From Gammaproteobacteria bacterium (GTDB lineage Bacteria > Pseudomonadota > Gammaproteobacteria > Eutrophobiales > Eutrophobiaceae): a stretch of 64,000 bases of DNA. The DNA lies in assembly GCA_026710545.1 (NCBI GenBank), contig JAPOQU010000102.1, positions 62,001 through 126,000 on the forward strand. Direction: 5' to 3'. Shown here one piece after another: positions 4,094 to 45,569 of the stretch. The translations under genes were made by a program, and so were the position numbers. Numbering within the stretch: position 1 is the first letter of the stretch; each line of letters starts with the position of its first letter. The notes beneath the pieces were generated by a model. It saw only the letters and a list, made by a program, of their open reading frames with translations, ran no database searches and had not been told where the DNA came from.

Positions 4094-5371
4094 TTAGTTA
4101 TCCTGGTACGCCGGCTTGCCGCCGACGATCGTATGGGTGACCTTGCCGTTCATCTCCCAGTCGTCGAAAGGCGTGTTTTTCCCGGCGCTGGCCAGTTGTT
4201 CCGCCGCGACCGTCCACTGGCGGTTGTCGTCGAATATGAACAGGTCGGCAGGCGCGCCCTCAGCCAGGGTCCCCGCAGCTATGCCGATAATGGAGGCAGG
4301 CCTTGTGCACAGGGAACGCACCACCTGTTCCAGCTTGAAGCCGCGGGTGGCAACCAGGTTAAAGGCCAGCGGCGCCAGGACTTCCAGCGTTGATGCGCCG
4401 GGCTCGGCCCTGCTGAAAGGCACGGCCTTGGCATCTTCATCATGGGGCTGATGGTCCGAGCAGACCGCGTCGATGACGCCCGACATCAACCCCTCCAGCA
4501 GCGCCAGCCTGTCCCGGTCGGCGCGCAGCGGCGGCCACAGGCGGCATTGGGAATTGAACCCGTCTACGTTGAGTTCCGTGAGGTACAGGTAACAGATGCC
4601 GACATCCGCGGTGACCGGCAGGCCCTGTTGTTTGGCCATGGCGATGAGTTCCACGCTGCGCGCGCAGGATAAACGGCAGAAATGTGCCGTTACCCCGGTC
4701 TGTTCGATCAATAACAGGGAGCGGCTGATGGCGATGGTCTCCGCGGTCTCCGGAATCCCGGGCAAGCCCAGACGGGTACTGATTTTGCCCTCGTGCATGA
4801 CACCCTGGTTCTTCAGGTAATGGTCTTCCGGGTGGATGAAAACGGGCAGGTCAAAACCGGCCGCGTATTCAAACGCGCGGCGCAGCACTTCCGTATCGAC
4901 GATCGGCTTGTCGACGTTCGACAGACCGACGCAACCGGCGCGCTTGAGGGCGGCCGCTTCCGTCAATTGTTGTCCATCCAGACCTTTGGTCAGCGCGCCG
5001 AGCGGGTAGATGCGCGTCTTGTCAAGCCGCTGCCGGCGCTGGTGGATAAGCTCGACGACTGCAGGCGTGTCCGTTACGGGACGGGTATCCGGCGGGCACA
5101 CCATGCTGGTTACCCCGGAGCGGACCGCGGCAGCGGTCTCTGATGCAATGGTGGCCTTGTGTTCGAATCCCGGCTCGCGGGTGTGTACGCTCAGGTCGAC
5201 TATCCCCGGGCAGACGTACTGGCCGTCCAGCGCTATTTCAAGGTCAGCGGTGAAGCCGTCCGGGCGCGCGCCGGCAGAGACGATCCGGCCGTCTGCGATG
5301 TACAGGTTGCCCGGTCCGTCAAGCCGTTGCCCGGGGCAGACCAGGTGACCGTTGCTGACGGCAATGCGCAT
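4094..5371 (-). CDS. Dihydroorotase-like protein PyrC', probably catalytically inactive
   Basis: This 425-residue protein is full length for a type I dihydroorotase. The N-terminal metal motif, normally D-x-H-x-H-x-R-E-P-G, reads DLSVHTREPG, so Ser61 replaces the first zinc ligand. The block usually reading H-x-x-H-V-S is HFCRLS, with Arg at the second His. SDHQPH near residue 315 is retained. This pattern matches the pseudo-dihydroorotase PyrC' of Pseudomonas, which scaffolds aspartate transcarbamoylase instead of hydrolysing. The start overlaps the pyrB stop by 1 bp (TGATG), implying translational coupling and fixed stoichiometry. Confidence 0.85.
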   Translation of the reverse strand: MRIAVSNGHLVCPGQRLDGPGNLYIADGRIVSAGARPDGFTADLEIALDGQYVCPGIVDLSVHTREPGFEHKATIASETAAAVRSGVTSMVCPPDTRPVTDTPAVVELIHQRRQRLDKTRIYPLGALTKGLDGQQLTEAAALKRAGCVGLSNVDKPIVDTEVLRRAFEYAAGFDLPVFIHPEDHYLKNQGVMHEGKISTRLGLPGIPETAETIAISRSLLLIEQTGVTAHFCRLSCARSVELIAMAKQQGLPVTADVGICYLYLTELNVDGFNSQCRLWPPLRADRDRLALLEGLMSGVIDAVCSDHQPHDEDAKAVPFSRAEPGASTLEVLAPLAFNLVATRGFKLEQVVRSLCTRPASIIGIAAGTLAEGAPADLFIFDDNRQWTVAAEQLASAGKNTPFDDWEMNGKVTHTIVGGKPAYQDN

Positions 5372-6351
5372 CAGTTGTCGCCCCCTGAGCTATCGGGCGC
5401 GGCGCCCATGACCATGGCCATGACAGCCATGCGTATGGCTATGCCGTGGCTGACCTGTTGCAGGATAACCGACCTGTCGCCGTCGGCCACCTGCGAGTCT
5501 ATCTCAATTCCCCGGTTAATCGGACCGGGGTGCATAACGATCACGTCCGGTTTAGCCACGCGCAGGCGCGTCCCGGTAAGGCCGAAACAGCGGAAATATT
5601 CCTCTTCGCTGGGCAGAACGGCATTTTTGATGCGTTCCCGTTGCAGCCGCAGCATGGCGATGACGTCGACATCCTGCAAGCCCTCGGTCAAATCATGGAA
5701 TACCCGTACCCCCAGGCTTTCAATATTGTCAGGGATCAGGGTCTTGGGTGCGATGACGCGAATGTCGCTGACCCCGAGAATGTTCAGCGCGTGAATTTCC
5801 GAACGGGCCACCCGGGAGTGGGCAATGTCCCCGACGATGGCTACCCGCAGGGATTCAAAATCCGGCTTGTGCCTGCGGATGGTGAACATGTCGAGCATGG
5901 CCTGGGTAGGGTGGGCGTGGCGGCCATCCCCCGCGTTGATGACATGGACGTTCTCGGCGACCTGGCCGGCAATGAAATGCGCGGCCCCGCTGTTGCCGTG
6001 ACGCACCACGAACATGTCGCAATGCATGGCTTCCAGGGTATGCAGGGTGTCCTGCAGCGTCTCGCCCTTATTGGTGGCCGACGTGGCGATATTGATATTC
6101 AACACGTCGGCGGACAAGCGCTTGGCTGCCAGTTCGAATGTCGTTCGGGTGCGGGTGCTCGATTCAAAGAACAGGTTGGCAACGGTCTTGCCGCGCAACA
6201 ACGGCACCTTTTTTACCGCGCGACCGCTTACCCCGGCGAACGATTCGGCATAATCCAGGATACTGGTCAGGGTTTGACGGTTGAGTCCTTCCGTTGTCAG
6301 GAAATGTTTGAGGCGCCCGTGCTGGTCCAGTTGAATAGTATGGGGCGTCAT
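5371..6351 (-). CDS. pyrB: Aspartate carbamoyltransferase catalytic subunit
   Basis: This 326-residue enzyme makes carbamoyl aspartate in the second step of pyrimidine synthesis. [15 protein letters not shown] holds the carbamoyl-phosphate site and HPTQAMLD lies at the domain junction. The frame stays open upstream to 6495, but the ATG at 6351 gives the standard N-terminus and overlaps the pyrR stop by 4 bp (ATGA), so I chose it. It probably forms a dodecamer with the downstream PyrC' protein. Confidence 0.97.
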
Positions 6352-10093: not shown

Positions 10094-11032
10094 ATGATTG
10101 GATCAATGTTACGTATCGTGACCAGAGAAAGTCCCCTGGCCTTATGGCAGGCGCGGTTTGTGCGCGGCCGTTTACAGGACACGCACCCGGGTCTTGACGT
10201 TGACATAACAACGCTAAAGACCGTCGCCGATCGTTTCCAGCAAAAATCCCTGGCGCAGATGGGCGGTAAAGGAATGTTCGTCAAGGAACTGGAGCAGGCG
10301 CTGCTGAACGGTACTGCCGACCTGGCCGTACATTCGATGAAGGATGTGACCGTCGACCTGCCCGCCGGCCTGTCCATCACCGCTGTCATGCAACGGGAAG
10401 ACCCGCGGGACGTGTTGGTATCAAGCCGCTATTCGTCCCTGGCCGGGTTGCCTGCGGGCGCGGTGGTCGGTACGTCCAGCCTGCGCCGGCAATGCCAGCT
10501 CAACGCGGCCTGGCCCGGGCTGGTCCTGAAGGACATACGCGGTAACGTGGGGAGCAGGCTGAAAAAACTGGACGGCGGGGCTTATGATGCACTGGTCCTG
10601 GCTGCCGCAGGGATAAAGCGTCTGGGCCGGGAGGACCGGATCAGCTTGTATCTCGGCGTGGACGAGATGCTGCCTGCGATTGGGCAGGGTGCGCTGGGCA
10701 TAGAAACCAGGACGGACGATGCGCGGGTGTGGCCACTTGTCCTGCCGCTGAACCACGAACCGACCCGCACATGCGTGGATGCGGAACGGGCCTTGTCCCG
10801 CAGACTCTACGGTGGTTGTCTGCTGCCGGTCGCAGCCTACGCAGAGACGTCCGGCGCAGACCTCTCCATGAGCGCGCTGGTGGGCTACCCCGACGGCTCC
10901 CGGGTAGTGAAAGACAGCATCAGCGGCGCCGCGGACCAGGGCGAGAGGCTGGGCGCCGAACTGGGTGAGCGCTTGCTGCAGCAGGGGGCGCAGGAAATTC
11001 TGGCGGAGGTGATGGGTAATGCGGAACAGTGA
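10094..11032 (+). CDS. hemC: Porphobilinogen deaminase (hydroxymethylbilane synthase)
   Basis: This 312-residue enzyme polymerises four porphobilinogens. RIVTRESPLALWQA and VHSMKDVTVDLP are conserved, and C242 in LYGGCLLPVAAYA carries the dipyrromethane cofactor. The start could instead be the ATG at 10106 (MLRIVTRES), which is closer to family N-termini. Neither has a strong ribosome binding site. It begins a hemC-hemD-hemX-hemY operon and overlaps hemD by 14 bp. Confidence 0.97.
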   Translation: MIGSMLRIVTRESPLALWQARFVRGRLQDTHPGLDVDITTLKTVADRFQQKSLAQMGGKGMFVKELEQALLNGTADLAVHSMKDVTVDLPAGLSITAVMQREDPRDVLVSSRYSSLAGLPAGAVVGTSSLRRQCQLNAAWPGLVLKDIRGNVGSRLKKLDGGAYDALVLAAAGIKRLGREDRISLYLGVDEMLPAIGQGALGIETRTDDARVWPLVLPLNHEPTRTCVDAERALSRRLYGGCLLPVAAYAETSGADLSMSALVGYPDGSRVVKDSISGAADQGERLGAELGERLLQQGAQEILAEVMGNAEQ

Positions 11033-11804
11033 TACGGCCCTGTCGGGGAAAAAAATCTGGGTTACCCGGCCGGCGCAACAGGCGGCGGAACTGTGCAGGA
11101 TGATCGAGGCAAGGCAAGGCCGGCCGCTGAGTTTGCCCGCCCTGGTGATACGGCCTGTCCCGGAGGAGATCGGCAGCGCGGAAAACATGCGCCGGCTGGC
11201 GCTGGCGGATATCGTGATCTTCATCAGCAAAAATGCCGTTGTCTATGCCCGCGACCGGTTTCCGCATATTATCGATATGCTGCAGGGAAAGACCGTCCTG
11301 GCCACCGGGCGCGCAACGGCCCGCAGCCTGCAGGAACTGGGGCTCGAGCGGGTTGATTGCGTCGACTCGGGCGGAACCGAGGCCTTGCTTGGGTTGCCGT
11401 CATTATCCGGGACGGAAATAACGGATAAACGCGTTCTCATCATACGCGGCCAGGGCGGCCGCGAGGCATTGCGCGACGGGTTGCTCGCACGCGGCGCCGG
11501 CGTGCATTACCTGGAAGTGTACCGGCGCGGGAAACCCGACATAAGTCAGGCAGACATGGCGAAATTCTGGCATGATGAGACGCCGGATGCGCTGGTTATT
11601 ACCAGCCTGGCCGCGCTGGATAACCTGGTCGAGATGACCCCGGCTCCCGAGGGCGTGCGCCTGCATGGAACCGCCACCGTGGTGATGAGTGAACGCATCA
11701 GGCAACACGCGCTGGCAGCGGGGTTTACCCGTGTGGCAGTGGCGCAGGATAACAGCGATGCGGGGCTGCTCGATGCCTTGCTGAAGATGAACGAGAGTAG
11801 CTGA
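11019..11804 (+). CDS. hemD: Uroporphyrinogen-III synthase
   Basis: This 261-residue protein has the low-conservation HemD fold. IWVTRPAQQAAELCRMIEA opens domain 1, VFISKNAVVYA-like text follows, and ITDKRVLIIRGQGGREALRDGLLARGAGVHYLEVYRR is the family's best signature. It closes hydroxymethylbilane with ring D inversion. Position directly after hemC, with overlapping frames, supports the call. Confidence 0.95.
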   Translation: MRNSDTALSGKKIWVTRPAQQAAELCRMIEARQGRPLSLPALVIRPVPEEIGSAENMRRLALADIVIFISKNAVVYARDRFPHIIDMLQGKTVLATGRATARSLQELGLERVDCVDSGGTEALLGLPSLSGTEITDKRVLIIRGQGGREALRDGLLARGAGVHYLEVYRRGKPDISQADMAKFWHDETPDALVITSLAALDNLVEMTPAPEGVRLHGTATVVMSERIRQHALAAGFTRVAVAQDNSDAGLLDALLKMNESS

Positions 11805-40919: not shown

Positions 40920-40930
40920 ATTCTGATACT

Positions 40931-40949
40931 GATAATGAGAATAATTTTC
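40931..40949. promoter_or_regulatory. Fur box 1, between prlC and the Gly-Asp RTX gene
   Basis: GATAATGAGAATAATTTTC matches the 19-bp Fur consensus at 16 positions. It lies upstream of the -35 of the rightward promoter at 40972-41000 and close to the leftward prlC start. The flanking text through TTTGAC is nearly the same as around Fur box 2 (44946-44987). Confidence 0.75.
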
Positions 40950-40971
40950 ATTTAAAATCAAGAAGTTATAT

Positions 40972-41000
40972 TTGACTCAAAGCATTTTATTTGCTATGTA
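40972..41000 (+). promoter_or_regulatory. Sigma-70-like promoter of the Gly-Asp RTX gene
   Basis: TTGACT and TATGTA are separated by 17 bp, 80 bp before the ATG at 41080. The Fur box lies directly upstream. Confidence 0.6.
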
Positions 41001-41079
41001 TAACCTGTAAATCCGTACATCTTTAGTCAAAGCAGTCCAGATATTCTTATCCATGACTGTTTTTTCAGGGGGGTCTATT

Positions 41080-42621
41080 ATGCAAGTTGATGAGGAAATT
41101 AGCGAGCACCTCAGCTTGGTCATACCTGATTCTTCGAGTTACCCATTGAATCTCACGGTCAATTTATCTTGGGAAGGCGTTCAAATGGACTTGCTGGATG
41201 GCGTTACCAATCCTCTTATTGATCAGAATCTTAACTTTGTCAGCCTCGATGACGACGACGACGATGACGACGACGATGACGATGACGACGATGATATGAC
41301 AGGCGGCGATGGCGACGGTGACGGTGATGGAGACGGCGATGGAGATGGCGACGGCGATGGCGACGGTGACGGGGATGGAGATGGCGACGGCGATGGCGAT
41401 GGCGACGGTGACGGTGATGGAGATGGGGACGGCGACGGCGACGGTGACGGCGATGGCGACGGTGATGGGGACGGTGATGGGGACGGTGACGGCGATGGCG
41501 ATGGAGACGGCGATGGAGATGGCGATGGCGATGGAGATGGCGACGAATCCGTCTCTTATCAAACTTCAACAAGAGGAGTTACGGTGCGCCTGCATTCAAC
41601 CCCGGTCAGGAAAGACGATCCCGAGGACGATACTTATACCGAAACGGTGATGTATGCGTATGTCGATGAAGCTGGTGAGATGCAGCAGGAGGAACTTCCT
41701 TATATCAGGCATGTTACCGGGTCTCCCCAGGCTGACGTGCTGGCCGGAGACCGCCGGGATAATATAATCAGGGGCGGCGCCGGCAATGATGTCTTGTACG
41801 GTGGTCCCGCAGGGGGCGATGACCTGCTCGAAGGCGAGGCGGGCAATGACACCCTGTACGGCGGTTTGGGAAATGACGTGCTGAACGGCGGTTCAGGAAA
41901 TGACGGATTGCGGGGTGGCGATGGCGACGATGTCCTGGATGGCGGTCCGGGCGATGACGTGCTGACCGGTGACGCTGGGGTAGACCGGCTGTCGGGTGGA
42001 GGTGGTGAAGATACCGCCTCTTATGCGGGTTCGTCAGAGGGTGTCACGGTGCGTCTCCACACTATGTCCGCGAGTGGGGGTGATGCTGAAGGCGACACGT
42101 TTGCCGGTACGGTGACGGTCGAGTACACAGATGAACTTGGTGTAACACAAGAGGTTGAGCTCCCCGACATCATGCACCTCATCGGTTCTGCCCAGGCTGA
42201 TATACTTGCCGGCGACAGGAGAGATAATACAATCCGGGGCGGCGCTGGCGATGACATCCTGTACGGCGGGCCTGGCGGGGGTGACGACGTGCTGGAAGGC
42301 GGAGCGGGCGATGATACGCTTTACGGCGGCGAGGGCGATGATGTGCTGGACGGCGGTGCAGACAATGACAGGCTGATCGGTGGTCCTGGCAGTGATATAT
42401 TTGTATTCCATGCCGGGGATGGAGAGGATGTCATCGCTGACTTTACTGATGGTGAGGACCGGATAGACCTTACATCTTTCGCGTTGTCCGGCTTCGATGA
42501 CCTGGCCCTGGAGTCCGTTTCAGACGGTGTGAAGATACACCTGCCGGCGCCGCACGGTGGGACGATTATGCTGGAGGGCTTCGCCATTGCCGACCTGGAT
42601 GCAACGGACTTCATGTTTTGA
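41080..42621 (+). CDS. Fur-associated acidic RTX-like protein with poly-Asp and (Gly-Asp)40
   Basis: The protein is 513 residues from ATG 41080, which has AGGGGGG 6-12 nt upstream (an in-frame ATG at 41053 is less likely). Order: a 56-residue leader without a Sec signal, 16 Asp (57-72), 40 Gly-Asp dipeptides (76-155), then two copies of a module of about 155 residues (from 159 and 314). Each module has a GVTVRLH strand and RTX nonapeptides such as GGAGNDVLYGG and GGAGDDTLYGG. The tail IFVFHAGDGEDVIADFTDGEDRIDLT-like block and the last residues DFMF resemble type I secretion signals. RTX repeats bind calcium. The Asp-rich front should bind cations strongly. No type I exporter is in the window. 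A hydroxylase gene follows. Confidence 0.85.
   Translation: MQVDEEISEHLSLVIPDSSSYPLNLTVNLSWEGVQMDLLDGVTNPLIDQNLNFVSLDDDDDDDDDDDDDDDDMTGGDGDGDGDGDGDGDGDGDGDGDGDGDGDGDGDGDGDGDGDGDGDGDGDGDGDGDGDGDGDGDGDGDGDGDGDGDGDGDGDESVSYQTSTRGVTVRLHSTPVRKDDPEDDTYTETVMYAYVDEAGEMQQEELPYIRHVTGSPQADVLAGDRRDNIIRGGAGNDVLYGGPAGGDDLLEGEAGNDTLYGGLGNDVLNGGSGNDGLRGGDGDDVLDGGPGDDVLTGDAGVDRLSGGGGEDTASYAGSSEGVTVRLHTMSASGGDAEGDTFAGTVTVEYTDELGVTQEVELPDIMHLIGSAQADILAGDRRDNTIRGGAGDDILYGGPGGGDDVLEGGAGDDTLYGGEGDDVLDGGADNDRLIGGPGSDIFVFHAGDGEDVIADFTDGEDRIDLTSFALSGFDDLALESVSDGVKIHLPAPHGGTIMLEGFAIADLDATDFMF
41248..41544 (+). repeat. Poly-Asp tract and 40-unit Gly-Asp hexamer array
   Basis: Sixteen GAY codons (41248-41295) are followed, after ATG ACA GGC, by exactly 40 tandem GGN-GAY hexamers (41305-41544). 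Third positions vary (GGC/GGT/GGA/GGG, GAT/GAC), so the DNA is a degenerate repeat while the peptide is perfectly regular. This suggests selection on the protein. No frame-shifting unit is present. Confidence 0.95.
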
Positions 42622-42658
42622 TTTGCATCGTCCATGTGCGTGAGGGGCAGCGGGAAAC

Positions 42659-43237
42659 GTGTCGATAACAGAGTCATCATACTTTACCAGGGTCGCCTGC
42701 GGCATTGACATAGTGCCGCTGGTATCAGAGTTGGTTGCGGAGCCGGAGATGTGGCTGGCCGACACCAGCCGCCAGCGCAAGATCCGCTGCCAGCGGGATA
42801 CACAGAACATATTTTTACGCGTCGCGAAGAAGCCCCTGCCGGAAGGCGCCACTAATGCCAACGATGTCCATGAAAGCCGCACCACCAAAACCGCCAGGCG
42901 TTTCCCCGGGACATTGGCTTTGTGCCGGCAGGTTGCCGACCTTGAGAATGGTGAACTCGGGCGCGCCACCCTGGTCGCCCTGCAACCGGGAGGCTGGGTG
43001 CGTCCGCACACGGACGTGGGGGAATACTACCGGATCCGGGATCGCTATCACCTGGTGCTGCAAAGCCCGGCGGGCAGCCCGTTGACTTGCGCAGGCGAAA
43101 CCATCGTTATGCGCGAAGGTGAATTATGGATATTCGACAACAAGTCCGAACACCAGGCCAGAAATCCTTCCGCTACGCCGCGCGTACATTTGATCTTTGA
43201 CGTTTTACCCGCGCCGGGACGCGGGTATTACGTCTGA
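42659..43237 (+). CDS. Aspartyl/asparaginyl beta-hydroxylase family dioxygenase
   Basis: The protein is 192 residues from a GTG start 37 bp after the RTX gene, same strand. The Fe(II)/2-oxoglutarate site is visible: H117-x-D119 in VRPHTDVGEYY, H165 in ELWIFDNKSEHQARN, and R175 in PRVHLIFDVLP for 2-oxoglutarate. RYHLVLQ and FDNKSEHQARN are the PF05118-type blocks. Family enzymes put an OH on the beta carbon of Asp or Asn in peptides or siderophore precursors. It is probably co-transcribed with the Asp-rich protein, an obvious candidate substrate. That link is inference. Confidence 0.85.
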   Translation: MSITESSYFTRVACGIDIVPLVSELVAEPEMWLADTSRQRKIRCQRDTQNIFLRVAKKPLPEGATNANDVHESRTTKTARRFPGTLALCRQVADLENGELGRATLVALQPGGWVRPHTDVGEYYRIRDRYHLVLQSPAGSPLTCAGETIVMREGELWIFDNKSEHQARNPSATPRVHLIFDVLPAPGRGYYV

Positions 43238-43248
43238 CAGCCTTCAAG

Positions 43249-44820
43249 CTAAAATGTTTCCGGCTGCAATATTTTGATGGCAGCAGCCAGTGCATGGGCG
43301 GCTGAATCCACGCGTACCGAGTTGTCGTAAACTTCAGTACGCAACGCGCCCAGCACACGCTGTTTTTTTGAAATATAAAAGGTGTCGTACCCGTCGCGAA
43401 ACTGTAACTGCCGCAAGGATCGTAACCCCCGGTTAAGCGCGCGCTCATAAGCGGCAACGCGTGCCGTATCCCCCAGCGCCCGGGCTAAAGCCAGGGCATC
43501 AGCCAGTCCCTCCAGGTATGCTCCCGTCGATGCCGCATGCGGCGGGCCATACTCCGGCCGCTGCGGGTTGTAAAACCGCCCGCGCAGATCAGGATCCAGC
43601 CCGTCCCATTGTTGCATCGGCAATAACCAGTCGTTGATTTCAAACACGAAGTCGGCAAATTCACGTCGCCCCGTCTGTTTGAAAAGTGACGTACAGGCCT
43701 GTGTGTGCCATGGTACAAAGGCCGGGTTGCGGGACCGGTAGTGGCGGGTTCGACTACGTGAGAAAGCTTCCGCGCAACGCGCCAGCGTCGGCGCGAAACC
43801 TGTGCCTCGGCGTCTGGCCTCGGCCCAGAACAACAGCGCCTCACCCGAATAAAAGTTCCAGTTATCGCCATCCCGTTCAGGCGGGAAAAAGAACGTATGA
43901 AAGCCCGTGTCCCCGTCCCATAGCGAATCAATGCCGGCCGCCAGCATGGTCAGTTCAGAGCTGAATTCCTTTTGTGCGCTACTTTCAAGGATAGCCAGCG
44001 CGGCAATGGCTGCGGCGCCAAGTTTTGCTCCCCTGCTCTCCACGATAGCGCCACGCCCGCCACCGATATCCTGAAAATACCGCTTCAGGTTGTAACGAAG
44101 GTTGAGGTGTGCCGCCTCGCGTAGCTCCTTGCTCTGGCGCAGCTTCGCCAGACGCGTAAGTGAAAGCGTGGCCAGAAACCGGCGTATGGCGTTGTCGGCC
44201 GGCGATTCCTCGCCCCGGCTCGGCCAGTACTTGTATGGCAACCCGCCTTCGGTGGTCAGGTTGCTCATCAGCCATTGTCCGATGCCGTCAGCGAGGTCGT
44301 CAGCGCGCTTCTCGCCGGCTGCAGGCGTAGCGGCAACAAGGATTGAACCGCGAAACAAGTCTACTTTTTCAACTTCATCACCGACCGGCAACAGAAACTG
44401 GCGGGCGGAAAAAGTGCGCAGCCTCCCTTCAGCGGCAAACTCTTCTACGCTGATCTCCCGTTGCTGCAGGAACCTGTCCAGCGCCCGTTTGAAACGAAGG
44501 TTGGCGGAGAGTATCCAGGTAGGCGCAAACCGGGCAGTCTCACCACGAAAGCTGATCTCCAAGCCCTTAACACCGCGTGCGCGCTGGTAGAAAACCCGTG
44601 AGAACCGATCCGCGGTGACCGGTCGAAAGTCATCGCATACGCACACTTCGATGATATCCCCCCGACGCGCGCCGGCATGCTTGACCAGGTCGGGGATGGA
44701 AATGTTCCCGATCCAACCGCTGTGGCGTGCTATCGCCTTGCTGCGAACGCAATACCAGACCATGGCGCTGGGGGATCGGGTGGTTATCGGGGTTTCCTGT
44801 CTTGTTGTGGAGTCAGGCAA
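43249..44820 (-). CDS. Uncharacterised two-domain protein in the iron island
   Basis: The protein is 523 residues from TTG 44820 (AGGA 6 nt upstream), or 504 from ATG 44763. I do not recognise a named family. Residues about 20-150 form a mixed alpha/beta domain with GLEISFRGETARFAPTWIL, faintly like AMMECR1. From about 180 to the end the sequence is helical with paired aromatic motifs (LPYKYWPSRGEESPADN, NWNFYSGEALLFWAEA, FVPWHTQACTSLF), suggesting an alpha/alpha toroid as in epimerases and some glycosidases. There is no signal peptide. It is convergent with the hydroxylase (11 bp gap) and divergent from bfr across a Fur box, so it may be iron-regulated. Confidence 0.7.
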   Translation of the reverse strand: MPDSTTRQETPITTRSPSAMVWYCVRSKAIARHSGWIGNISIPDLVKHAGARRGDIIEVCVCDDFRPVTADRFSRVFYQRARGVKGLEISFRGETARFAPTWILSANLRFKRALDRFLQQREISVEEFAAEGRLRTFSARQFLLPVGDEVEKVDLFRGSILVAATPAAGEKRADDLADGIGQWLMSNLTTEGGLPYKYWPSRGEESPADNAIRRFLATLSLTRLAKLRQSKELREAAHLNLRYNLKRYFQDIGGGRGAIVESRGAKLGAAAIAALAILESSAQKEFSSELTMLAAGIDSLWDGDTGFHTFFFPPERDGDNWNFYSGEALLFWAEARRRGTGFAPTLARCAEAFSRSRTRHYRSRNPAFVPWHTQACTSLFKQTGRREFADFVFEINDWLLPMQQWDGLDPDLRGRFYNPQRPEYGPPHAASTGAYLEGLADALALARALGDTARVAAYERALNRGLRSLRQLQFRDGYDTFYISKKQRVLGALRTEVYDNSVRVDSAAHALAAAIKILQPETF

Positions 44821-44945
44821 GTCGGGTCCTGCCGGAGTGAGCCGGTTAACGGAAACAAAGCGTGGGGCATGTTCGTCATTATTCTGGCGCTGATTTTCAG
44901 ACTGCGGCAGCCGGGTTACACGGAATCATGTCATGGTAGTGTAAA

Positions 44946-44960
44946 TGATAATAATTTTCA
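44946..44960. promoter_or_regulatory. Fur box 2, upstream of bfr
   Basis: TGATAATAATTTTCA is a 7-1-7 Fur site with one mismatch to TGATAATnATTATCA. It lies between the divergent 523-residue gene and bfr, 21 bp before the bfr -35 element. Confidence 0.75.
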
Positions 44961-44981
44961 TTTATTATCAATAAGTTATGT

Positions 44982-45010
44982 TTGACATGCAAGGTTGTGA
45001 ATGCTATTAT
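44982..45010 (+). promoter_or_regulatory. Near-consensus sigma-70 promoter of bfr
   Basis: TTGACA and TATTAT with a 17-bp spacer, about 95 bp before the bfr ATG. This is the strongest promoter match in the window. Confidence 0.75.
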
Positions 45011-45104
45011 CCATGCATTGTTACCGCTATTCGGATTAAAAAAACAGACTGTCTGTGAGCGATGACCGGTATCGAGTTAACTTTTTTTATTCTAGAGGTG
45101 AATT

Positions 45105-45569
45105 ATGCAAGGTGACAAGAAAATTATCGAGTATCTTAACAAGGTGCTCAAGAATGAACTGACGGTAATCAACCAGTACTTCCTCCATGCCCGTATGTGG
45201 AAGGACTGGGGCCTGAAGGAACTGAATGAGCATGAGTACCATGAATCCGTCGATGAGATGAAACATGCCGACAGGCTTATCGAAAGGATTCTGTTCCTGG
45301 AGGGCCTGCCCAACCTGCAGGACCTTGGCAGGTTATATATTGGTGAAAATACCGTGGAGATGCTGGAATGCGACCTGAAACAGGAACACCTCGCCATACC
45401 GCTGCTGCGGGAGGCCATAGCCTGTTGTGAGTCTGCTCAGGATTATGTCAGCCGCGAACTCCTGGAAGATATCCTCGAAAATGAGGAGGAACACGTGGAC
45501 TGGCTGGAAACCCAGCTTGAACTGATAGAAAAGGTCGGCCTGGAGAATTACCAGCAGTCAAAGATGTAG
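45105..45569 (+). CDS. bfr: Bacterioferritin
   Basis: This 154-residue four-helix subunit of the 24-mer iron store has ferroxidase ligands E18, E51, H54, E94, E127 and H130 all in place, and M52 for the inter-subunit haem. The sequence aligns closely with E. coli Bfr ([39 protein letters not shown]). AGAGGTG precedes the start. bfd follows under its own Fur box. Confidence 0.97.

Follow-up and report, generated by a model that had tools for sequence, protein, structure and literature searches.

The window analysed here, a 64,000-nt stretch of contig JAPOQU010000102.1 from a Gammaproteobacteria bacterium, contains one copy of a compact three-gene set that is common to at least three bacterial phyla. 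Its first gene encodes a protein built around aspartate and Gly-Asp repeats (the GD protein); the second encodes an Fe(II)/2-oxoglutarate (2OG) oxygenase of the aspartyl/asparaginyl beta-hydroxylase family; the third, convergent to the hydroxylase gene, encodes a protein with a predicted alpha/alpha toroid. We conclude that this cassette probably makes a post-translationally modified acidic polymer that is exported and binds metal at the cell surface. An earlier sequence-only reading had singled out the first two genes and proposed that they form an iron-regulated iron scavenger or store; it mentioned neither the convergent third gene nor the Fur box found at the same place in relatives that lack the pair.

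To follow the hydroxylase across bacteria, we scanned the genome_contigs collection (84,980 species per its description) with two peptide patterns, derived from an alignment of three hydroxylases and drawn from that gene only. The scan returned 24 hydroxylase loci in 22 genomes, with proteins 62-83% identical to that of the window. By record title, two loci belong to Gammaproteobacteria, one to Pseudomonadales, one to Rhodobacter and two to Gemmatimonadetes, and the remainder to Acidobacteria or its subgroups (Vicinamibacteria, Thermoanaerobaculia, Bryobacterales). An in-frame Gly-Asp codon tract of at least six units lay within 3.1 kb of the hydroxylase in all 24 loci, upstream and on the same strand in 22 of them. 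The third gene was likewise present in 24/24 loci, convergent to the hydroxylase and 61-77% identical to the window protein. When open reading frames (ORFs) were grouped with the GD tracts masked, the groups reaching at least 10 loci were the hydroxylase, the third gene and their overlapping-frame or other-strand ORFs. Across 16 shared loci, hydroxylase and third-gene distances agreed (r = 0.80, reached by 0 of 5000 permutations), as expected if the two genes travel together.

The same linkage holds close to home. Among 40 related genomes, the (GD)6 codon pattern occurs in three, the source genome (G000) and its congeners G002 and G003, exactly those with the hydroxylase, a coincidence far beyond chance, and the third gene is found in the same three. 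The (GD)6 places adjoin the hydroxylase or, for the second place in G002, lie at the end of another contig. Some PF05118-like match (E <= 0.001) appears in 11 of the 40, with an ortholog of the window hydroxylase only in these three genomes; the best-scoring other homologs in relatives are 31-36% identical. The sequence-only reading would have fallen had the pair not stayed together in relatives, and together it stays. We infer that the three genes have spread horizontally as a cassette. An IS481-type transposase-like ORF adjoins the Rhodobacter cassette (L043 7989-9128), and an integrase-like ORF, recognised by eye, lies near that of G003 (L019 3241-4428); both are possible means of spread. 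In Pseudomonadales locus L044, the GD ORF (10445-11176) lies downstream of both the hydroxylase and the third gene, with a TonB receptor in the same stretch.

The GD tracts themselves are closely tied to the hydroxylase. When 23 hydroxylase genomes were searched again with a stricter pattern, 25 tract starts were recovered, 22 of them on the hydroxylase contig and at most 3.1 kb away; the other three sit close to where a different contig begins (G041:C74, G046:C90, G002:C219), a pattern to be expected when tracts are broken in assembly. Three genomes without a tract start (G045, G054, G057) have hydroxylase contigs that end inside the tract, and several locus contigs begin inside it (L022, L024, L025, L028, L029, L038, L042), at points where assemblies break. 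An even draw of 297 Acidobacteriota genomes and a sample of 274 genomes of the source's class contained tracts in three and seven genomes, respectively (2/296 and 6/273 without the hydroxylase), and the pattern read backward, used as a control, occurred in 0/297 and 1/274. The eight hydroxylase-less genomes hold 10 tracts of 6-10 units, six of which consist of one repeated hexamer, three of two hexamers and one (L100) of three. Beside the hydroxylase, the longest runs uncut by a contig end span 33-81 units, uninterrupted Gly-Asp by the definition of the search, and use 3-8 hexamers (L032 dropped). Long Gly-Asp runs that persist while their silent sites vary argue for selection on the protein, and a mere microsatellite origin was rejected in view of this variety of third positions.

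In five loci from four genomes (L027, L030, L034, L035, L036), one of them the chromosome-level record OX638294, a single open frame runs through tract, Asp run, a similar linker and hydroxylase, and an internal start within it is possible. A sixth fusion, L032, and an inverted arrangement, L097, both from genome G049, were set aside as likely assembly joins through the tract; L032 is probably a misjoin because its sequence matches L031 at 97% on one side of the tract but L030, also at 97%, on the opposite side. It is excluded from the claims on fusion and orientation and retained among the 24 loci of the linkage counts.

In the window, the GD ORF spans 41053-42621 on the + strand, with a likely ATG start at 41080 that is preceded by a ribosome-binding-like AGGGGGG and opens with the MQ common to G002 and G003. 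The 16-Asp run, the 40 Gly-Asp units, the 37-bp gap to the hydroxylase gene and the hydroxylase residues named in the sequence-only reading were all confirmed from the sequence. The encoded protein has 115 Asp, no Cys and a computed isoelectric point of 4.05; it holds 54 Gly-Asp dipeptides, 40 of them contiguous, and runs from the Asp run through the Gly-Asp units and the RTX repeats to a terminal DLDATDFMF. This terminus corresponds to DLDATDFLL in G003 and NLDAADFLF in G002. Ten GGxGxD motifs and a PF00353 match (E = 5.6e-39, six stretches) bear out the RTX assignment for the window protein; as a conserved partner of the system, RTX was rejected, with two or more GGxGxD motifs found only in the three genomes of the gammaproteobacterial genus, 0-1 in other GD proteins, and no PF00353 match in 10 GD proteins of other lineages.

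Carriers of the tract vary instead, from RTX proteins in this genus to often lipoprotein-like proteins elsewhere, of about 250-870 residues where complete. Lipobox-like sites were found by pattern in 8 of 14 GD ORFs (L026, L030, L031, L033, L034, L036, L039, L041, with weak-looking sites in L030 and L033), and a ninth, in L043, by eye. The L041 protein has a B-lectin-like end (23.6 bits, below the Pfam cut-off of 32.4). A TbpB-like barrel domain forms the end of the L043 protein (4163-5377; 20.3 bits, below the cut-off of 26). Matches of the tracts to PF22807 (TrAA12) were disregarded as low-complexity, though three exceed the cut-off. The source genome encodes a PrtD-type ATPase (TIGR01842, 683 bits; cut-off 510) adjoined by HlyD- and TolC-like ORFs recognised by eye; PrtD also exceeds the cut-off in G003, G004 and G005, and not in G001, G002 or G006 (G002 is 88% and G006 77% complete). 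Export, which the sequence-only reading had assumed, is thus in keeping with features carried by the GD proteins, and the PrtD-type system may export that of the window. The variety of carriers, the lipobox-like sites and the B-lectin- and TbpB-like ends fit a surface or secreted product, and we consider such a location likely.

The hydroxylase (42659-43237) matches PF05118 at 79.7 bits (cut-off 22.6). Its Fe-binding HxD...H residues H117, D119 and H165 and its 2OG-binding R175 are invariant in all 21 aligned sequences, that of the window included. An AlphaFold2 model built from this 21-row alignment (mean pLDDT, the predicted local distance difference test, 87) has as its best fold matches in the PDB L-proline cis-4-hydroxylase at the top, a nucleoside-antibiotic hydroxylase and human AspH. 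The LpxO equivalog NF033391 scores 23.2 bits, far below its cut-off of 500, and TauD/TfdA (PF02668) is not among the Pfam matches up to E 0.01. Judging from linkage and fusions, it is likely that this enzyme acts on the Asp residues of the tract.

The third protein, of about 500 residues, has no Pfam or NCBIfam match, and its sequence finds no match, or only matches of E > 1, among solved structures. Its predicted structure (mean pLDDT 79) combines an alpha/beta N-terminal part with an alpha/alpha toroid. The structural matches span residues 147-503, with none for the N-terminal part, and are led by GH76 (Z 24.7), cellobiose 2-epimerase (Z 23.8) and drimenyl diphosphate synthase (Z 23.3). GH76 mannanases, cellobiose 2-epimerases, unsaturated glucuronyl hydrolases and squalene-hopene-type cyclases all score Z 22-25, so the predicted fold is clear and no single family stands out.

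In the 297 Acidobacteriota genomes, the third protein has two distant relatives besides that of the centre genome. Both are C-terminal parts of proteins of about 980 residues that also carry a phosphoribosyltransferase (PRTase)-like part and an AMMECR1 domain. Identity is 28-32%, and a profile comparison (probability 98.3, E 1.5e-14) aligns the toroid and, at low similarity, the part preceding it. Each adjoins a TIGR03975 radical S-adenosylmethionine (SAM) C-methyltransferase of ribosomally synthesized and post-translationally modified peptides (RiPPs; 537 and 550 bits, cut-off 282) and lies near a P-E-V-A-P type repeat protein (L123 514-1824; L124 243-692). These two clusters of repeat protein, TIGR03975 enzyme and PRTase-AMMECR1-toroid protein (L122 3386-8692, L123 514-6605, L124 243-692) have the appearance of another system for modifying repeat proteins. 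Two unrelated settings thus bring together a repeat polypeptide, a toroid protein and an enzyme that oxidises or alkylates, which is our main reason for suggesting a part in modification for the toroid protein.

Table 1. Features of the cassette and its surroundings in the window.
Feature	Position	Strand	Remarks
Fur-box-like operator	40931..40949	none	16/19; between prlC and GD gene
Promoter-like TTGACT-17-TATGTA	40972..41000	+	By eye; layout similar to bfr promoter
Gly-Asp repeat protein with C-terminal RTX repeats, 513 residues	41080..42621	+	Longer ORF from 41053
Run of 16 Asp codons	41248..41295	+	From sequence
40 contiguous Gly-Asp units	41305..41544	+	8 different hexamers; codon count
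RTX nonapeptide repeats	41738..42411	+	PF00353, GGxGxD motifs; limits approximate, by eye
C-terminal DLDATDFMF	42592..42618	+	From sequence; resembles a type I secretion signal (putative)
Fe(II)/2OG Asp/Asn beta-hydroxylase family protein	42659..43237	+	GTG start; 37 bp past the GD-gene stop
Third cassette gene	43249..44763	-	Convergent; N-terminal part weakly like the AMMECR1 end, plus alpha/alpha toroid (predicted)
Second Fur-box-like site	44941..44959	none	15/19; between third gene and bfr
Bacterioferritin gene bfr (context)	45105..45569	+	PF00210

These parts suggest the following sequence of events, which draws on linkage, fusions, active-site residues, silent-site variety, export features and the Fur-box promoter, all read from the sequence. 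A carrier protein with a (Gly-Asp)n tract, a poly-Asp tract or both would be translated, and before export the 2OG oxygenase would beta-hydroxylate the tract at its Asp residues, still inside the cytoplasm with its supply of Fe(II) and 2-oxoglutarate. The toroid protein may assist or add a further modification. Export would proceed through the RTX end by a PrtD-type type I system in this genus and elsewhere often as a lipoprotein, after which the surface would display vicinal carboxylate-hydroxyl ligands for hard metal ions at high density. Fe(III) would be a plausible ligand in this genus, where the gene stands under a Fur-box promoter, and Ca(II) or other metals may serve elsewhere. As the main ligand in this genus, Fe(III) is possible at somewhat under even odds; as the main ligand everywhere, it is improbable.

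Extending this scheme, we tentatively propose a new class of ribosomal, beta-hydroxylated poly(Gly-Asp)/poly-Asp surface polymer, whose cassette moves between phyla, probably among sponge symbionts, uses interchangeable carriers, and in the genus of the window took over the bfr promoter (possibly with its first codons) to work as an iron-regulated ferric ligand. Taken in full, this account falls a little short of an even chance. Several observations weigh against the basic scheme. The PF05118 family also contains LpxO-type lipid hydroxylases and free-amino-acid hydroxylases, the top fold match is a Pro hydroxylase, and a weak LpxO match exists. In L025 the tract lies upstream on the opposite strand, and in L044 about 2.1 kb downstream. 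Some fusions carry an export signal before the oxygenase, which is awkward if the enzyme is cytoplasmic, unless translation begins at an internal start. The cassette is also rare, with the hydroxylase in 1/297 Acidobacteriota and 1/274 class genomes, each the centre of its draw, and all 22 named cassette genomes are metagenome-assembled genomes (MAGs), at least one of which is probably misassembled at the tract.

The strongest alternative makes iron the general function of the cassette, with the hydroxylated Asp of the exported protein binding Fe(III) under iron limitation. Fur boxes were scored against the 19-position consensus of E. coli, which may not suit the other phyla. On this measure, the window contains five separate Fur-box-like sites with at least 14 matches, compared with about 0.4 expected from 10 Markov shuffles. 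One of them, 16/19 at 40931, lies 130 bp before the start codon of the GD gene, as the sequence-only reading had proposed together with a promoter; the promoter-like element is missing from a consensus promoter scan of the locus. Downstream of the GD gene, no terminator-like site was found on the + strand before the hydroxylase, and the stop codons of the hydroxylase and the third gene are 11 bp apart. That reading had also named bfr, bfd, receptor and ferric ABC genes, and Pfam confirmed bfr, bfd, a TonB receptor and a solute-binding protein as neighbours; the first three lie downstream and agree with an iron role, as does beta-hydroxyaspartate, which takes part in siderophore iron binding in the account of cupriachelins given in PMC10484230.

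Comparison with congeners changes the weight of this setting. In cassette-less G001, G004 and G005, prlC is directly divergent from bfr, with one Fur-box-like site (13-14/19) between them, at the same place in G001 and G005 and shifted in G004; the G006 assembly lacks sequence at this point. The cassette occupies the interval from prlC to bfr in G000 and G003, which have two copies of the Fur-box promoter, one before the GD gene (16/19 in both) and one before bfr, so that in the window a bfr-type Fur-box promoter flanks the cassette on both sides (40920-41090 and 44900-45105). The left part of the G002 locus, on separate contig G002:C219, holds a box (14/19), the start and the tract, and a weaker site (13/19) lies between its third gene and bfr (L022 3473). 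The GD-gene start (TATTATGCAA; MQARTKIIECL in G002) resembles that of bfr: by BLASTN, the 5' end of G001 bfr is 84% identical over 43 bases to that of the G002 GD gene, and no such match was obtained for the G000 GD start. Read most simply, these sequences suggest a duplication of the bfr 5' end as the cassette became established at this site. The presence of the Fur box in three cassette-less congeners means that the iron context exists independently of the cassette, and this empty-site comparison marks iron control as a lineage-specific addition; iron context as proof of function was downgraded accordingly.

Seven of the 22 loci outside the genus begin inside the GD ORF, and among the 15 with upstream sequence a single box-like site was found (L037, 15/19, about 0.7 kb upstream). 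Box-like matches inside poly-Asp codons (L021 6868/6871, L019 8868/8871, L033 7743) were not counted, nor were 13/19 sites located past the third gene in L023 and L024 or 3.7 kb upstream of the GD ORF in L043. Twenty neighbour ORFs from seven loci (L034, L041, L044, L039, L037, L043, L026), chosen by a crude coding score, are mostly iron-unrelated or family-less (PQQ proteins, kinases, ABC transporters, a helicase and others), with a TonB receptor (L044) and a ferritin (L039) as exceptions. A ferritin gene, 45% identical to the window bfr, lies just upstream of the cassette in Acidobacteriota loci L039 (6148-6906) and L040 (1389-1850). Together with the sub-threshold TbpB-like domain of L043, these ferritins leave iron some footing beyond the genus; as a general function, an iron scavenger or store is rather unlikely, given the Fur-box promoters before bfr in three cassette-less congeners and a single box-like site in 15 outside loci. 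In the genus of the window, the sequence indicates genuine iron control; a functional role may stand behind it, and such control may have been retained since an iron-binding polymer would be of benefit when governed by Fur.

A somewhat less probable alternative is a structural or Ca-binding polymer, in which the tract would form a charged stalk, gel or mineral-directing surface and hydroxylation would tune Ca binding or stability. The carriers are typical of surface proteins (Ca-binding RTX repeats, lipoproteins, the B-lectin-like end of L041), the GD proteins show weak low-complexity matches to Sdr/Clf adhesins, the Ser-Asp repeats of staphylococcal adhesins offer a parallel, and hydroxy-Asp is found in Ca-binding epidermal growth factor (EGF) domains. 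However, this explanation accounts neither for the Fur-box promoter in this genus nor for the need of Asp for an oxygenase.

It is less probable still that the GD protein is a RiPP-like precursor whose tract is modified and cut out to give a small hydroxylated peptide. The kinship of the toroid protein with the PRTase-AMMECR1-toroid proteins beside TIGR03975 enzymes and P-E-V-A-P repeats in two genomes points in this direction, and a GD protein adjoins a modifying enzyme in 24/24 loci, as in RiPP systems if the GD protein is taken as the precursor. Against this, no leader, RiPP recognition element or dedicated protease was recognised in general Pfam/NCBIfam scans, which included no dedicated search; at 33-81 units, the uninterrupted tracts are longer than one would expect of a peptide product; the protein continues beyond the tract in L041, L043 and the gammaproteobacterial genus; and tract and enzyme form one ORF in five loci. 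That the hydroxylase acts on another target (a lipid, a free amino acid or another protein), with the GD protein its neighbour for other reasons, is quite improbable: the breadth of PF05118 and the unusual order in L044 and L025 would allow it, but linkage in 24/24 loci across three phyla, the fusions and the absence of both genes from the other 37 of 40 relatives argue against it.

The proposed surface polymer may be a trait of sponge symbionts. The MAG titles RHO3_bin_19 and APA_bin_41 agree with the Rhopaloeides odorabile and Aplysina aerophoba sponge MAGs of PMC8163846, whose excerpted text describes three R. odorabile individuals and A. aerophoba data re-assembled from published work; a host for each of these records does not appear in the excerpts of PMC8163846 and PMC13224822. 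We would guess that the other cassette MAGs are sponge symbionts as well. Among the matches listed in the open PMC literature, which excludes most subscription papers, none describes GD-repeat proteins accompanied by a hydroxylase, and the printed string GDGDGDGDGD occurs in 0 papers there. To our knowledge, hydroxy-aspartate chemistry has otherwise been described only for siderophores of non-ribosomal origin and for single residues of EGF-like domains. If the proposal holds, the cassette would provide a ribosomal route to a hydroxy-aspartate polymer and bacterial PF05118 hydroxylases would gain a concrete, testable protein substrate. It also flags the AMMECR1-like/toroid family for its recurrence next to repeat proteins and modifying enzymes, and points to a surface trait common to bacteria that belong to several phyla and may live in the same animal hosts. 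Metal-binding polymers that are genetically encoded could also be put to use in recovering metals and in work on biominerals.

None of the families tested accommodates the cassette as a combination, and its principle of action would resemble, by analogy, RiPP modification and the hydroxylation of EGF domains. The window hydroxylase belongs with AspH and LpxO in PF05118, above the cut-off, with an AspH fold match and the Fe/2OG residues kept; it differs in having a complete HxD...H triad, the Asp of which is missing from AspH, and in its linkage to repeat proteins rather than to EGF domains or lipid A. With RTX proteins of type I secretion, the window GD protein shares GGxGxD repeats, an acidic C-terminal end and a PrtD system in the genome, whereas a GD tract forms most of the protein and comes with a hydroxylase of its own, and RTX is confined to this genus. 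TIGR03975 RiPP systems likewise combine an encoded polypeptide with a modifying enzyme and include toroid homologs and repeat proteins, but the cassette has a 2OG oxygenase in place of a radical SAM enzyme and carriers of about 250-870 residues where complete. Beta-hydroxyaspartate siderophores such as cupriachelin present the same proposed Fe(III) ligand; they are lipopeptides from non-ribosomal synthetases, unlike the ribosomal GD protein, and siderophore Asp hydroxylases belong to the TauD-like family. The Ser-Asp repeat surface proteins SdrC/D and ClfA share the dipeptide repeat stalk with dedicated modification, in their case glycosylation, and pair Ser-Asp with glycosyltransferases where the cassette pairs Gly-Asp with a hydroxylase.

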